A stretch of 43,582 bases of DNA from a virus: positions 1 to 43,582 of the IMG/VR virus record IMGVR_UViG_3300032053_000157; one strand, written 5' to 3'. Below the pieces are notes generated by a model. The model had not been told where the DNA came from, made no database searches, and saw only the letters and a program-made list of their open reading frames with translations. Below are positions 35,528 to 42,987 of this stretch, one piece after another. Both the position numbers and the translations under genes were made by a program. Position 1 is the stretch's first letter. Each line of letters opens with the position of its first letter.

Positions 35528-36490
35528 ATGACTCAGAAAAAGAAATTATTAATAACAGGGAGTTGCGGTTTTATTTTTTCGAATTTTATTCGTAAAATTA
35601 TTTATGATAAACAGCCATATACTGTAGTTAGTGTTGATAAAGTTTCTAAGAATTTATTAAACAATATTTATTGGAATAAAAATCATACATTTCATATTGC
35701 AGATATTACAAATTCACATATTATGAATACAATATTTGAATTTGAAAAGCCAGATATAGTTATTCATGGCGCTGCTGAATCATTTGTTGACGCTTCTCTT
35801 AATAATCCTACTAGCTTTATAAATGCGAATGTATTAGGAACACAAATTGTAATTGATTGTTGTGTTAAGTGGGGAACCGAAAAACTTATTTATGTTTCTA
35901 CTGATGAAGTATATGGTCACTTAACTTCTGAATCAGATCCTCTTTGGAAAGAAGATTCCGCATTAAATCCTAGAAACCCTTATAGCGCTTCAAAAGCGGC
36001 AGGCGAATTATTAGTTAAAGCTGCTTATGAATCGTTTGGATTAAATTATAATATTACTAGGTCTTCAAATAACTATGGTCCTCGCCAAACATCAGAGAAG
36101 TTCATACCAAAAATAATTAAATGTATTTTAAATGATGAAAAGATTCCTGTTTATGGGCAAGGGTTGCAAATTAGAGATTGGATGCATGTATATGATAATT
36201 GTAATGGAATATTATCTGTATTAAATGATGGTAAGACAAATGAAACATATAATATTTCAGCCAATCAAGAATTTACTAATATTGAAGTAGTTCAAGAGAT
36301 TTGCAATGCTATAAAAAAGGGGCATGACCTTATCGGGTTCTGCAAAGATAGATTGGGGCATGATTTTAGATATGGAACTGATTCTTCCAAAATAAGAGAA
36401 TTAGGATGGAAACAACAGTTCAAATTTAAAGACGGAATTAAAGAAACGATTGAATGGTATTTATCAAATAAATGGTATTTAAATCATTAA
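35528..36490 (+). CDS. rmlB: NDP-glucose 4,6-dehydratase, RmlB-like (320 aa)
   Basis: This is an extended short-chain dehydrogenase that would convert dTDP-glucose (or a similar NDP-sugar) to the 4-keto-6-deoxy intermediate, the second step toward rhamnose and other deoxysugars. The NAD site is LLITGSCGFIFSNFIRK (Gly-x-x-Gly-x-x with Phe-Ser in place of the usual third Gly). VIHGAAESFVDASLNNP follows. STDEVYG (near residues 123-130) supplies the Thr-Asp-Glu set that distinguishes 4,6-dehydratases, and YSASK (Tyr152, Lys156) the catalytic pair. RSSNNYGPRQTSEKFIPK and GLQIRDWMHVYDNC match RmlB sugar-binding parts. The length is slightly below the usual 330-360. No rmlA, rmlC or rmlD is visible, so the host or genes outside the window must supply them. 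Confidence 0.85.
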   Translation: MTQKKKLLITGSCGFIFSNFIRKIIYDKQPYTVVSVDKVSKNLLNNIYWNKNHTFHIADITNSHIMNTIFEFEKPDIVIHGAAESFVDASLNNPTSFINANVLGTQIVIDCCVKWGTEKLIYVSTDEVYGHLTSESDPLWKEDSALNPRNPYSASKAAGELLVKAAYESFGLNYNITRSSNNYGPRQTSEKFIPKIIKCILNDEKIPVYGQGLQIRDWMHVYDNCNGILSVLNDGKTNETYNISANQEFTNIEVVQEICNAIKKGHDLIGFCKDRLGHDFRYGTDSSKIRELGWKQQFKFKDGIKETIEWYLSNKWYLNH

Positions 36491-36803: not shown

Positions 36804-38192
36804 ATGACGTCCAAATCTGTTACAGAAGAAGTGCTTTTAGAAGTAATTGCAGATGATGTATCAAATGCAGAAATAAAAACAATAGTAGAGTCACAGCCTC
36901 AACAAAATGCAGATGTTGATTTAAGCAAGCTAGCCGCATTAAAAGCTAAAAATCAAGCAAAACAATCTCAGGAGCAACCTATGTCAGCAAAAATTGTAGC
37001 AAAAAAAGAAAGAAGTTTAGTTTTAGGTATCATCGGTTCAGGGCAAGCTGGATCTAGACTAGCAGAGTCCTTCTATAACCTTGGCTATGACGCTATAGCC
37101 ATCAATACAGCCTTACAAGACCTTAAGCACATCAATATGCCAGATTCTTCTAAATTGCTTCTAGAAGGCGGATTAGGTGGTGCAGCAAAGACTTTATCAA
37201 TTGGTCATGATGCCGCCGAAAATCATAGAGGAGAAATCTTACAATTAGTCAATGATAAATTAAGCCAAACACAAGTTCATGTTTTATGCACAAGCCTTGG
37301 TGGTGGATCTGGAGCCGGCTCAGCTGAAGTATTAGTTGATCTATTATCTGCTTTAGAAAAACCATTAGTTGTTATAGCCGCCCTCCCAATGGAAAATGAA
37401 GACGCCCAAACTAAATCAAATGCCTTGGAAACATTAGCTAAATTAAGCAGATTAACTCAAAGCAAAAAAGTTCATAATTTAATCGTAGTAGATAATGCTA
37501 AGATTGAGGCTATTTATAGTAATGTAAATCAATTAGATTTCTTTAATGTTGCCAATAAAGCGATTGTAGAGCCTCTTGATGTATTCAATACATTATCTGC
37601 CGCGCCATCTCCAGTTAAACCACTAGATAGCGCAGAATTTGCTAAACTATTAATTGATGGTGAAGGTTTAACTATTTATGGCAGCGTTAGCGTCCCAAAT
37701 TTTATGGAAGACACCGCAATTGCAGAAGCTATCATTAATAATTTGGATGGTAATTTGCTTGCAAATGGATTTGATTTAAAACAATGTCGTTATGTTGGAG
37801 TAATGGTTGTAGCTAATAAAGATACTTGGGCAAAAATTCCAAGTTCATCTGTTAACTATGGTATGGAAATGATTCAAGATAGATGTGGTCAACCTCGTGG
37901 TATATTCAAAGGAATATATTCTGTTGACTCTGAACCAAATGACTCATTAAAAGTTTATACAATGATGAGTGGGTTAGGATTACCACAATCAAGAGTTGCA
38001 GAGTTAAAAAAATCTGCTCAAGAATTGATGAGTAATGTTAAAGCTAAAGATGATGGAAGAAACTTAACATTAACATTAGATGTAGGAACTACTGATACAG
38101 TCTCTGCCACTCAAAAGATTAAAGATAAAATTTCTGGTAAGTCTTCAGCATTTGGAAAATTAATGACACCAGTTGTTGATAGAAGAAAATAA
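36804..38192 (+). CDS. FtsZ/tubulin-like GTPase with N-terminal extension (462 aa)
   Basis: This is a filament-forming GTPase of the tubulin/FtsZ superfamily. After a polar tail of about 68 residues come the loops in order: T1 GIIGSGQAGSRLAESF, the base/sugar-contact strand AIAINTALQDL, T3 LGGAAKTLSIGHDAAENHRG, the signature T4 loop SLGGGSGAGSAE, LIVVDNAKI (T6), and a T7 loop PLDSAEFAKLL with two acids spaced as in FtsZ (D-x-x-D/E). These acids complete the GTPase site of the next subunit, so activity is likely kept. The C-terminal domain continues to about residue 400, then a basic tail. The pattern is nearer FtsZ than the PhuZ or TubZ groups, as far as reading shows. Phage tubulins move or centre DNA or capsids; the use here is unknown. 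AGGAAAG precedes ATG 36804. Confidence 0.85.
   Translation: MTSKSVTEEVLLEVIADDVSNAEIKTIVESQPQQNADVDLSKLAALKAKNQAKQSQEQPMSAKIVAKKERSLVLGIIGSGQAGSRLAESFYNLGYDAIAINTALQDLKHINMPDSSKLLLEGGLGGAAKTLSIGHDAAENHRGEILQLVNDKLSQTQVHVLCTSLGGGSGAGSAEVLVDLLSALEKPLVVIAALPMENEDAQTKSNALETLAKLSRLTQSKKVHNLIVVDNAKIEAIYSNVNQLDFFNVANKAIVEPLDVFNTLSAAPSPVKPLDSAEFAKLLIDGEGLTIYGSVSVPNFMEDTAIAEAIINNLDGNLLANGFDLKQCRYVGVMVVANKDTWAKIPSSSVNYGMEMIQDRCGQPRGIFKGIYSVDSEPNDSLKVYTMMSGLGLPQSRVAELKKSAQELMSNVKAKDDGRNLTLTLDVGTTDTVSATQKIKDKISGKSSAFGKLMTPVVDRRK
36971..36983 (+). promoter_or_regulatory. Internal ribosome-binding site and in-frame ATG in the FtsZ-like gene
   Basis: GGAG (36971-36974), six bases and ATG (36981) form a near-ideal start at codon 60, just before the conserved GTPase core. 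It could yield a 403-residue form without the tail. Confidence 0.5.
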
Positions 38193-38410
38193 TGATAAAT
38201 TCAGATTATTTGTGTGGATTTATAAATAAAAAAATATCTGCAATAATGTCTAGTGGTAAAAATTGGCGAGGAAAATTAACTAAAGTTGGCACAAATACGT
38301 TTGTATTAACCATATCTAGTTCATATGCTGGTTATGATCCAGATCAAATACATTTATCATTAGAACATCTTGAAAGTTTTTTGGAAATTGAAGTAGCTAA
38401 AATTAATTAA
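38192..38410 (+). CDS. Small beta-rich protein (72 aa), SH3/Sm-like in appearance
   Basis: The start shares one base with the stop of the FtsZ-like gene, and its own stop shares one base with the helicase start, so it is embedded in a coupled run. The sequence has a strand-turn-strand core (GKNWRGKLTKVGTNTFVLTI) followed by DQIHLSLEHLESFLEIEV. Length and strand order suit a small barrel such as SH3 or LSm, but no diagnostic motif is present. It could assist the helicase or the FtsZ-like protein. Confidence 0.65.
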   Translation: MINSDYLCGFINKKISAIMSSGKNWRGKLTKVGTNTFVLTISSSYAGYDPDQIHLSLEHLESFLEIEVAKIN

Positions 38411-39873
38411 TGAAAATAGTAATTAAAGATAATAAATTCGCACAAATATTGTCAGATGATACAGATTTTTTAAAAAAACTTCATAAAGAATTATCATTCA
38501 AACAAGATGGTGTAGAATATACTCCTGCCTATAGAAATGGCTGGAATGGATACACTTATCTTCTTACTAAAACAAATAAATTCCCCATAGGATTATTAGA
38601 TCGTGTTAAAGAATTTGCAACTAATTACTCTATAGAATTTATAATAGAAGACTTAAGACCAAAAATTGAAATATTAGATTCAATCGATATTAGTAAAAAA
38701 CTTCATAAATTAAAATTAGATCCTAGAGACTATCAATTAGAAGCTGTCAAAGCTGCGAATGAAAATCAAAGAGGTATAATTAGAGCCGCTACAGGTGCTG
38801 GCAAATCTTTAATATCTGCACTTATTACTGCTTATCTAAATAAACCAACAACTGTTTATGTTATTGGTTTGGATTTATTAAAACAATTTCATGATTTATT
38901 TTCTGAAATCTTCAATGAAGAAATTGGATTTATTGGAGATGGTATTTGCGAAGTAAGACGAATAAATATTGCAACTGTCTGGACAATAGGCAGAACATTA
39001 TCCTTAAAAAAATCTGAAATATTTCAAGATGAAGAAGATGAAGATGAAAATTTTAATCCATCTAATACTCAAAAGATTTTAAAAATGCTTAGCGATACCA
39101 GAGTGCATTTATTAGATGAGTGCCATATTTGCACTACTGATACAATCAATGCTCTTTATAAAAATATTAATCCAGAGCATCTTTATGGATTAAGTGGAAC
39201 TCCTTATAGAGATGATAATACAGATCTTTTAGTGGAGGGAATCCTTGGTAAAAAAATTATAGACATATCTGCTTCTTTATTAATTGATAGAGGAGTATTA
39301 GCACAGCCAATAATAAAATTTGTGCCCGTTCCAAACATAAGTATGCCAATGGAACAATATCAAACAGTTTATAAAAATTATATTGTTGAAAACGTTGCCA
39401 GAAACAATTTAATTGTAAATCAAACTAAAGACTTATTAAGTAAAAAATATACCCCGCTTGTTTTATTTAAAACCATAAAACATGGTGAAATTTTATTTGA
39501 GATGATGAAAGATACTGGAATAAAATGTGAAATGCTTTATGGCAATGATTCAATAGAAAGAAGGTTTGAAGTAAAACAAATGTTGATAGATAAAGAAATT
39601 GATGTTATATTGGCTTCTACTATTTTTGATTTGGGAATAGACCTTCCAATATTAAGCGCATTAGTGTTAGCTGGTGGAGGCAAATCTTCTATTAGGGCAG
39701 TACAAAGAATTGGCAGAGTAATTCGTAAATTCAAGGGTAAAACACGCGCGGCAATTGTAGATTTTTATGATCAAACAAAATTTTTAAAAAAACACTCTGT
39801 AAAAAGATATAAAATATATTCTTCAGAAAAAGGATTTAAAGTAATTAAATGTAAAGAAATGTCAAAGGCTTGA
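38410..39873 (+). CDS. uvsW: UvsW-like superfamily 2 helicase (487 aa)
   Basis: UvsW of T4 unwinds branched DNA such as R-loops and stalled forks and helps move from origin-dependent to recombination-dependent replication. The length is close to T4 UvsW (about 500). The N-terminal 90 residues look like its small DNA-binding domain (RNGWNGYTYLLTKTNKFPIG). Then follow LDPRDYQLEAV (Q-like region), motif I RAATGAGKSLISA near residue 126, motif II LLDECH near 234, motif III LYGLSGTPYRDD near 261, LASTIFDLGIDLP (motif V) near 400, and motif VI QRIGRVIRKFKGK near 432. An acidic insert (DEEDEDENF) lies near 212. All catalytic residues appear intact. It overlaps the upstream gene by one base. Confidence 0.88.
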   Translation: MKIVIKDNKFAQILSDDTDFLKKLHKELSFKQDGVEYTPAYRNGWNGYTYLLTKTNKFPIGLLDRVKEFATNYSIEFIIEDLRPKIEILDSIDISKKLHKLKLDPRDYQLEAVKAANENQRGIIRAATGAGKSLISALITAYLNKPTTVYVIGLDLLKQFHDLFSEIFNEEIGFIGDGICEVRRINIATVWTIGRTLSLKKSEIFQDEEDEDENFNPSNTQKILKMLSDTRVHLLDECHICTTDTINALYKNINPEHLYGLSGTPYRDDNTDLLVEGILGKKIIDISASLLIDRGVLAQPIIKFVPVPNISMPMEQYQTVYKNYIVENVARNNLIVNQTKDLLSKKYTPLVLFKTIKHGEILFEMMKDTGIKCEMLYGNDSIERRFEVKQMLIDKEIDVILASTIFDLGIDLPILSALVLAGGGKSSIRAVQRIGRVIRKFKGKTRAAIVDFYDQTKFLKKHSVKRYKIYSSEKGFKVIKCKEMSKA

Positions 39874-40509: not shown

Positions 40510-40904
40510 AACCAATAAAAGGACAACATGTTCATATTCTATTTAAAAATGGAACCAATATAAATGGTATCGTTGAATTATGGTCAGATAAAGAATCTCA
40601 TTTAAAATCTATTAGTGGTAATAATGATATTATAATTTTTAATACAATTGAAAATGTTATGATGGTTATCTTAAATAAAGAAAAACAAGCCGAAGAAAAG
40701 AAAGAATTATCAAAAAAATTTGAAGCGACATATAACGCTCCATCAGATGATGACCTTAGAAATAAAAATTTAGCTGATTTAAAAAATCTATTAAATCAAC
40801 AAGAAAAAGAAATTATAATAGAAAAACTAAGCTCGCATCATATAACTGATGTGGCGGGAGTAAAATATGGAGTTCCAGGATTTTTCAAGAAGCAAGGCTC
40901 TTAA
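40506..40904 (+). CDS. LSm-like small protein with helical tail (132 aa)
   Basis: Residues 3-58 resemble an Sm/LSm fold: KGQHVHILFKNGTNINGIVE matches the Sm1 pattern (V-x-I-x-L-K-N-G-x-x-I-x-G-x-V), and DIIIFNTIENVMMVIL gives the later strands. After this comes a highly charged helix (residues 60-75) and a C-terminal region with LADLKNLLNQQEKEIIIEKL. Hfq-type Sm proteins bind RNA and LSm rings act in RNA handling, but RNA binding is only inferred here. It overlaps the upstream gene by four bases and the loader gene by 38 bases, which places it firmly in the replication operon. Confidence 0.6.
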   Translation: MKPIKGQHVHILFKNGTNINGIVELWSDKESHLKSISGNNDIIIFNTIENVMMVILNKEKQAEEKKELSKKFEATYNAPSDDDLRNKNLADLKNLLNQQEKEIIIEKLSSHHITDVAGVKYGVPGFFKKQGS

Positions 40905-41571
40905 CCATGTGCCACAAAGAAAATTGGACGAAAAATTATCTGAAATTAAAGATAGTAATTTGGAAGATTCAATTAAAAGATTAAAATTAACAGCTTTCAA
41001 TAGATATTTTGAAAGCAATATTCCTGCAGAGTATTGGGGTCTTAAAATGGAAAAAGATTTTCATGGCGACCCAAGACTTTTAAAACTATATAATGAATAT
41101 GTTAATTCAATTAAAAATAATTATATTAATGGAAAATCTATTTGTTTGGCTGGTAACCATGGTTTAGGAAAAACATTTGTAGTAACTTCTATTCTAAAAA
41201 AAGTAGTACAAAAAGGATATAGTGGACTGTATACTACGCTTAGTGATATTGTTAATGTGTTATTGCAATCTTCTAATGAAGAAAAATTCACCTCTCGTCG
41301 TGAATTAAATATGGTTGATTTTTTAGTTATTGATGAATTTGACTCTAGATTTATTCAATCTGATAACGCAGCTGATTTATATGCACGAACATTAGAGGGC
41401 ATATTTAGAACTCGAAGTCAAAATAAAATTCCAACATTAATGTGTACAAATAGTCCAAATATAATTGAAACATTTAATGGTTCATTAAAAAATAGTGTTG
41501 ATAGTTTATTTAATGGATATTTAAATATATTTCCAGTGTTTGGCGAAGATTATAGAAAAAAGGGAGATTAA
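40867..41571 (+). CDS. DnaC/IstB-like AAA+ helicase loader (234 aa)
   Basis: A P-loop ATPase of the type that opens and loads the ring helicase encoded next. Walker A is LAGNHGLGKTFV (near residues 96-103) and Walker B is VDFLVIDEFDSRF (near 152-159). PTLMCTNSPN gives sensor 1, and ARTLEGIFRTRSQNK is placed like the arginine-finger region of DnaC-like loaders. The N-terminal 60 residues are helical and basic, as expected for a helicase-binding part. GGGAG at 40856-40860 is six bases before ATG 40867 and supports this start despite the 38-base overlap with the LSm-like gene. The following helicase gene starts immediately after its stop. Confidence 0.83.
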   Translation: MEFQDFSRSKALNHVPQRKLDEKLSEIKDSNLEDSIKRLKLTAFNRYFESNIPAEYWGLKMEKDFHGDPRLLKLYNEYVNSIKNNYINGKSICLAGNHGLGKTFVVTSILKKVVQKGYSGLYTTLSDIVNVLLQSSNEEKFTSRRELNMVDFLVIDEFDSRFIQSDNAADLYARTLEGIFRTRSQNKIPTLMCTNSPNIIETFNGSLKNSVDSLFNGYLNIFPVFGEDYRKKGD

Positions 41572-42987
41572 TTGAACACTATAGATTTAGACCTATCTAT
41601 TCTTAAAGTACTTGTCTCAAATAAAAGACAAGCGCTTGATTTCGTTAATGATTGCGATACCAAATTATTTGGATCTTCTTATTGGAATTTTGCTAATTTA
41701 TTGGTTGGATATATTAAAACTTATAAAGACATTCCAACATTAAGAGTTATAGAAGATAGATTATCTAAAGGTAAAAATGAAAAGATAATTGAAAATGTTA
41801 AAACAATTTGGAAACAATTAGATTCCATATCATATGATGATAAAGAGTATAAATATGATTTAGAAAAATTGAAGAATAGATATTCTGAATTAGAAATATC
41901 TAATGCTGCTGATGAACTTTCAAAAATGCGTGAAGGTGCAATAGATATAAAAAAAGCTACATCTAAATTACAAACAGCATTACAAAATATCAAAAGCGTT
42001 ACACAAACAAAAACATATGAAAGTAAAGATATTAAAGAATATTTGCCCTTATTCGTAGATAAATTTAATTATAAAAAGAACAATCCAAACATAGATTCTG
42101 GAATTAAAACTGGATATTCTTTTTTTGATTTTTCAACTAATGGTGTTAAAGAGGCTGATTTTATTATTATTGCTGGAGAGTCTGGGTTTGGCAAAAGCTT
42201 ATTTCTTAGTAATATTGGTATACAAACTTGGTTGCAAGAAAATACAGTTGATAAAATAGATAATTTTTCTACTGGAAAAAATATTATTTATTTTTCTTTA
42301 GAAATGCCATTTGAAGATTGTTTTATTAGAGTATTAAGTAGGCTATCTGGAATACCAGCTAGAAAAATAGAAAACGCTACCATTAATAAAGAGGAAAAAA
42401 ATAAACTTAAAAAAGTTTTAGATTTTATAAACGCCTATCCTTATCAATTTAAAATTGTTGACATTCCAGATGCTTGCTCAAATGATTTAGAAAAAATTAT
42501 GGTTGATATGGGCGTTAATTTTGATATTTTATTTGTTGATTATATTGGTATTATGCGAACTAATGAAGATAAAGAAGAGCAAGATTGGCTTAAACAAGGA
42601 ATTATAGCTTATGAATTAAGAGCAATTGGTAGAAAATATAAATTGCCAATATTTTCGGCGGCACAATTAAACAGAAAATCTTCAACCAAAGATGCTTCAG
42701 ATAATATAGGGTTAAATAGGCTGGCTAGATCGGGAACAATTGCCACTCATGCAACTACTGTAATTCAAATAGAAAATCGTATGAATGAAGAAAATTATCC
42801 AGATTTTATATACCATATAATTAAACAAAGAAAAGGAATTAAAGGAAAAGGGAAATTAATTAAAAATCTTTCTTGTGCTACTTTATTAGACATTTCTCCA
42901 AGTGAAAATGGAGAAATAGATGTTAAATTTACAAATTATAATGATGATATTTCTCAAGAAATGGATAATATTGAGCTGTCGTTATGA
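41572..42987 (+). CDS. dnaB: DnaB-like replicative DNA helicase (471 aa), TTG start
   Basis: Superfamily 4 ring helicase that would unwind the fork ahead of the phage polymerase. The start codon is TTG at 41572, chosen because GGGAG (41562-41566) lies five bases upstream and it directly follows the loader stop. The N-terminal 150 residues are helical, like the DnaB N-domain. The RecA core contains Walker A AGESGFGKSLFLS (residues 202-209), FSLEMPFEDC, Walker B ILFVDYIGIM (near 319-326), FSAAQLNRKSS (motif H3) and VIQIENRMNE, then KQRKGIKGKGKL with the arginine-finger region. Length is like DnaB (about 470). It forms an operon with the loader and LSm-like genes. All core motifs are intact. Confidence 0.9.
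   Translation: MNTIDLDLSILKVLVSNKRQALDFVNDCDTKLFGSSYWNFANLLVGYIKTYKDIPTLRVIEDRLSKGKNEKIIENVKTIWKQLDSISYDDKEYKYDLEKLKNRYSELEISNAADELSKMREGAIDIKKATSKLQTALQNIKSVTQTKTYESKDIKEYLPLFVDKFNYKKNNPNIDSGIKTGYSFFDFSTNGVKEADFIIIAGESGFGKSLFLSNIGIQTWLQENTVDKIDNFSTGKNIIYFSLEMPFEDCFIRVLSRLSGIPARKIENATINKEEKNKLKKVLDFINAYPYQFKIVDIPDACSNDLEKIMVDMGVNFDILFVDYIGIMRTNEDKEEQDWLKQGIIAYELRAIGRKYKLPIFSAAQLNRKSSTKDASDNIGLNRLARSGTIATHATTVIQIENRMNEENYPDFIYHIIKQRKGIKGKGKLIKNLSCATLLDISPSENGEIDVKFTNYNDDISQEMDNIELSL

Follow-up and report, generated by a model that had tools for sequence, protein, structure and literature searches.

The tubulin gene and its product

The window, by which is meant the whole stretch of DNA analysed, is a virus record of 43,582 bases. 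Its phage origin is apparent from that record, from tail and baseplate genes upstream of the gene considered here, and from genes for a UvsW-type helicase, a helicase loader and a DnaB-like helicase downstream. At 36804..38192 on the plus strand lies an intact ORF, ATG to stop, located precisely where an earlier sequence-only reading had placed it, and the ORF, Pfam, an AlphaFold2 model and fold comparison identify its 462-aa product as a TubZ-like phage tubulin. The GTPase domain (aa 76–238, 37029..37517, +) matches Pfam Tubulin/FtsZ with 56 bits against a cut-off of 33 (E 6.5e-15), and the C-terminal activation domain (aa 264–395, 37593..37988, +) matches TubZ-like_C, PF22453, with 35 bits against a cut-off of 26 (E 1.5e-8). 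That the product is a tubulin/FtsZ superfamily GTPase encoded by a phage, as first proposed, is far beyond chance, with Pfam over cut-off and the gene context that of a phage.

Alignment locates the T1 loop, GSGQAG, at aa 78–83 (37035..37052, +), the T4 tubulin signature, GGGSGAGS, at aa 166–173 (37299..37322, +) and the T7 catalytic loop, D275-x-x-E278 of the TubZ-type D-x-x-E-F/W, at 37626..37637 (+); T6 is VDNAK (aa 229–233). The T4 signature and the T7 acids D275/E278 are invariant in 32 aligned members of the family of huge-phage tubulins to which this one belongs. The presence of nucleotide-binding motifs (T1, T4, T6) and catalytic acids, noted from the start, is thus confirmed. In the AlphaFold2 model a long H11-like helix follows the last strand (aa 395–422, 37986..38069, +). 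Polymer formation by the window tubulin is plausible, judging from its motifs and its predicted structure.

TubZ-like wording and fold

The sequence-only reading had the protein follow FtsZ in the order and wording of its T elements. The order of the T-loops stands; their wording is of the TubZ type. T1 of the family is G-x-G-Q-x-G-S-R, near that of several TubZ, the FtsZ counterpart being GxGGGGxN; T5 is LP where FtsZ has PF; T6 is VDN.K where FtsZ has mostly I.NDK; H7 carries (A/S)N-K, as in one TubZ, most FtsZ having (A)(N/D)D; and T7 is D-x-x-E-F/W as in TubZ, against N/D-x-D-x-x-D in FtsZ and D-x-x-D in PhuZ. Since this T7 wording is that of TubZ, the PLDSAEF of the window tubulin is a TubZ-type T7. 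Residue by residue, its T1, T5, T6, H7 and T7 agree with TubZ more than with FtsZ. The C-terminal D-x-P-x-F-L-R peptide of FtsZ, which serves partners of the FtsA/ZipA type, is absent, the window tail being SSAFGKL..VDRRK, whereas most bacterial FtsZ references terminate in a V/I-P-x-F-L/I peptide.

On the window tubulin the FtsZ equivalog model TIGR00065 fails, with 69.4 bits against a cut-off of 295.2. A PDB search with the single sequence returns TubZ/RepX best (5e-13) and FtsZ next, and the family profile scores 77 bits with TubZ/RepX, 47 with CetZ2, 44 with FtsZ and 25 with phiKZ PhuZ. The phage tubulin C-domain PF22334 has no match in the window tubulin at E<=1, though it matched phiKZ PhuZ, and the narrower TubZ_C PF21493, found in a plasmid TubZ, has no match there.

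The AlphaFold2 model, for which 32 family members were used, has a confident core (block pLDDT mostly 80–96), with low confidence at residues 1–38, 49–66, 415–435 and 443–462. The first 21 rows of a Foldseek search against the PDB are all TubZ. With VIA-align the best fold is TubZ (Z 36.3, 351 residues, rmsd 2.9), followed by CetZ2 (Z 34.2, 316 residues, rmsd 2.5) and FtsZ (Z 31.4, 299 residues, rmsd 2.8); PhuZ is not among the 50 VIA-align matches listed, which is no argument for a different fold. With profile, fold and T-loops all favouring TubZ, and the structure prediction ranking TubZ ahead of CetZ and FtsZ, neither the original FtsZ-type label nor the supposed nearness to FtsZ can be kept. 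Compared with TubZ/RepX of Bacillus plasmids (4ei7, 2xka), the protein is alike in having a GTPase and a C-domain, in T5/T6/H7/T7 wording, in the long helix after the last strand and in a flexible C-tail, while identity is ~20%.

Trees were built twice with IQ-TREE, from 50 rows x 440 columns and from 47 rows x 400 columns, and both place the window tubulin inside a huge-phage family clade, with support of 100/99 in the first and 82/99 in the second; CetZ was compared by fold and profile, the trees being without CetZ sequences. Bacterial and archaeal FtsZ form a clade (97/97 and 100/100) and PhuZ another (100/100), both without the window tubulin, and the TubZ rows form no single clade. Four hypotheses on the sister of the huge-phage family (HP) all survive AU tests, with p-AU values of 0.332 for HP+FtsZ, 0.413 for HP+PhuZ, 0.443 for HP+MID and 0.434 for HP+TubZ+G. 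Because the FtsZ and PhuZ clades exclude the family and the AU tests favour no sister, the huge-phage tubulins are a deep clade of their own, TubZ-like by wording and fold, for which the AU tests leave several sisters possible.

An FtsZ orthologue is ruled out by the equivalog cut-off and the trees. What is shared with FtsZ is the GTPase fold and the T-loop order (Z about 31); the failed cut-off, a T7 without N-x-D-x-x-D, the absent C-terminal peptide and a place outside the clade separate the two. A PhuZ is ruled out by the absence of PF22334 and by exclusion from its clade. The trees, which the earlier reading had itself suggested, therefore uphold its view that the protein is not a PhuZ and go against a placement inside the FtsZ clade. 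The PhuZ proteins (phiKZ gp39 family) resemble the window family in being phage-encoded, single copy and from large genomes, and differ in forming a separate clade (100/100), in having PF22334 and in their mostly acidic tail.

Conserved terminal segments

Alignment also reveals an N-terminal acidic motif (aa 13–19, 36840..36860, +; family consensus EExVDDV), a basic N-terminal segment mostly of low pLDDT (aa 38–71, 36915..37016, +; consensus VDxxKLAALKAKSQAK..KIVAKKERS) and a basic C-terminal tail (aa 433–462, 38100..38189, +; consensus SAAQKIKEKIAxKSSAFGKLVGGVVDRRK), which terminates in basic V-D-R-R-K. Mean pairwise identity is 77% for aa 38–71 and 78% for aa 433–462, compared with 79% for the GTPase domain and 37% for aa 20–37, so that the terminal segments are conserved like the GTPase core, though largely of low confidence in the model. 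TubZ uses its flexible C-tail to bind TubY and the TubRC complex (PMC5322520). The conserved N- and C-terminal segments of the huge-phage family may bind phage partners.

Gene neighbourhood

Synteny was counted over 118 family loci, among which some contigs are represented more than once. The upstream neighbour, a nucleoside-diphosphate-sugar epimerase-like protein named from sequence reading (35528..36490, +), was matched in 113 of these, and the downstream neighbour, the UvsW-type DNA helicase (38410..39873, +), in 100. The DnaC-like helicase loader that serves as lineage marker (40867..41571, +) and the DnaB-like replicative helicase (41572..42987, +) were matched in 84 and 76 of the 118, counts that are limited by contig ends. 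The tubulin thus lies consistently upstream of the UvsW, loader and DnaB genes, which constitute a replication module; adjacency to replication genes is no proof of a replication role.

Some phages block FtsZ, and a tubulin of the same superfamily as its host counterpart might co-assemble or compete with host FtsZ and so block division, the protein having been proposed as a dominant partner of host FtsZ. That proposal finds no support, and host takeover is very unlikely: identity to FtsZ is ~20% over the aligned fold, the FtsZ C-terminal peptide is absent, T7 and H7 are unlike those of FtsZ, a basic N segment and C tail that are both fixed point to partners of its own, and its position is fixed beside replication genes.

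Tight against the tubulin gene on its 5′ side is a 91-aa gene (window:36528-36803), matched in one other locus only (L033), and on its 3′ side a small gene (window:38192-38410) matched in no other locus; neither the 91-aa nor the 72-aa neighbour has a Pfam match over cut-off. In relatives, small proteins of similar look occur where the 3′ flanking small gene of the window sits. No conserved partner gene was found beside the tubulin in ~40 loci, and no iteron array near the gene or elsewhere in the window. The interval between tubulin and UvsW is variable; a GH25 hydrolase is found there most often, along with small unrelated proteins. [The GH25 lysozyme-like gene is seen in this interval at L004:9920-10756 and in 14 other loci; it is not there in the window.]

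These flanks bear on whether the phage is instead a plasmid-like pseudolysogen, whose tubulin, TubR adaptor and tubC iterons make up a classical type III partition system that segregates the genome, as proposed for Clostridium phage c-st. The c-st precedent (PMC7950403) is joined by a basic C-tail and by plasmid TubZ/RepX being nearest in both sequence and fold. That neither a conserved neighbour nor iterons were found makes a TubR/tubC system of the classical kind less likely, a search limited to tubulin neighbours being one that a distant or diverged TubR could escape. Further, the 91-aa gene 5′ of the tubulin is matched in just one other locus, the interval to UvsW is variable, and the tubulin sits in a replication module and not in a stand-alone operon. 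Partition is accordingly judged improbable. The family also differs from TubZ/RepX, in addition to being without a tubR neighbour or iterons, in its conserved basic N segment, its huge-phage genomes and its replication-gene linkage.

Inteins occur at some of these loci. In two family members (L038:6366-9137 and L040:6330-9134) the tubulin is split exactly in T1 (GQAG/C...THN/SRLAE) by an intein that contains a LAGLIDADG homing endonuclease domain; Pfam Intein_splicing and LAGLIDADG_3 support this. The DnaC-like loader of L133:10200-11969 appears to bear one in Walker A (GKHGIGK is interrupted, with TMVSCCILKR after), and the UvsW ORFs of L040, L135 and L140, enlarged to 842–923 aa, perhaps contain inteins too.

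Distribution and selection

Scans of IMG/VR gave 46 loci and then the best 80 of 83, with contigs largely common to both lists; two of the 46, at 32% identity, belong to a second clade described below. Family members are 49–73% identical to the window tubulin. In the second list 24 contigs are of 200 kb or more, the largest being 480,838 bases, and a single tubulin was found in each of the 31 contigs searched. When loci were anchored on the helicase-loader gene, with at least 4 kb available upstream, 52 of 53 also encode the tubulin; the sole exception is on an 88-kb contig from which tubulin is absent altogether. The median NG86 dN/dS over 96 overlapping pairs is 0.039, a rough value as synonymous sites are near saturation, and the family tubulin is under strong purifying selection.

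Cellular relatives were not found in 84,980 species genomes with a two-pattern, and hence pattern-limited, scan. Among isolates the only match is phage G at 23% identity, and the family is without a cultured member. A deposited member does exist: UniProt A0A6J5RW92, from an uncultured Caudovirales phage, is 64% identical over its full length and goes under 'FtsZ Cell division GTPase', which is no more than its database name. No study of it, and no description of a huge-phage TubZ-like family, was found in the literature searched.

Bacillus phage G gp138 is similarly the tubulin of a huge phage unlike phiKZ, and differs from the family in its neighbourhood and in grouping with a Pontibacillus plasmid protein. 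The latter tubulin, on an 898-kb 'plasmid' (L063:2998-4077), is near an SSB gene. Tubulins of further uncultured phages form a second clade (L046 and L156-L219, 64 loci, e.g. L204:2902-4032), ~32% identical to the window protein and with 100/100 support in the tree, on contigs of up to 211 kb; no isolate relative of it was found.

Phage-nucleus genes

A chimallin profile matched none of 23 large family contigs and all five PhuZ-carrying control phages, with the proviso that a strongly diverged chimallin would escape a profile search. The profile for the phiKZ RNA polymerase beta subunit, sensitive enough to match 14 of 14 cellular controls also, matched 0/21 family contigs and 5/5 controls, and that for the phiKZ DNA polymerase gave the same result (0/21 and 5/5). 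Family contigs are possibly incomplete, an unlikely cause of absence from every one. While the PhuZ controls have chimallin and a phiKZ-type RNA polymerase, neither was detected in the window-family phages, which do not belong to the known kind of phage-nucleus virus.

Could the family tubulin still be a functional equivalent of PhuZ, in phages whose nucleus has a shell protein that is no relative of chimallin or has diverged past detection? The genomes are huge, every large contig tested encodes the tubulin, and PhuZ does act on such a compartment (PMC13282480). Set against this are profiles that found all three genes in every PhuZ-carrying control and none in the family, together with a tubulin that falls outside the PhuZ clade, and such an equivalent is unlikely.

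A model for the family tubulin

The protein is probably a TubZ-like cytomotive tubulin, a core gene product of huge tailed phages outside Chimalliviridae, whose filaments would position DNA or particles without a chimallin shell. We infer its polymerisation, cargo, timing and role along the following lines. GTP would be held between loops T1–T6 of one subunit, and D275/E278 of T7 would complete the active site of the next, giving dynamic protofilaments, as the conserved motifs and predicted fold suggest. The basic N and C segments may project from the filament and dock a phage partner, be it DNA, a replication protein or a capsid. Filaments of this kind could position or move replicating genomes, particles or both in lytic infection, in a PhuZ-like manner and without the known chimallin shell; PhuZ is known to position phage DNA (PMC7950403).

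A more far-reaching version is put at somewhat short of even chances. It is that these proteins are a third class of phage tubulin, neither PhuZ nor the TubZ of c-st, obligate in a widespread huge-phage lineage that has neither chimallin nor a phiKZ-type RNA polymerase, and that they drive a different and undescribed intracellular organisation of replication in which filaments are tied to cargo by the conserved N and C segments.

Phage tubulins have been described as falling into two subgroups, TubZ and PhuZ (PMC7950403), and as distinguishing Chimalliviridae and a handful of other large phages (PMC11835377); huge-phage genomes have been reported to have tubulin homologues, which were called PhuZ (PMC7162821). 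PhuZ is missing from a third of Chimalliviridae (PMC10299810), and here tubulin is near-universal in another huge-phage lineage, where it is more constant than PhuZ. Tubulin has also been reported to correlate with multisubunit RNA polymerase (PMC7824862), a correlation to which the huge-phage TubZ-like family is an exception. Why giant phages need a cytoskeleton is now testable separately from the phage nucleus. With a tubulin gene that is fixed and strongly conserved in a large group of uncultured giant phages without known phage-nucleus genes, the family points to giant phages having a second and so far undescribed means of organising the interior of the infected cell.
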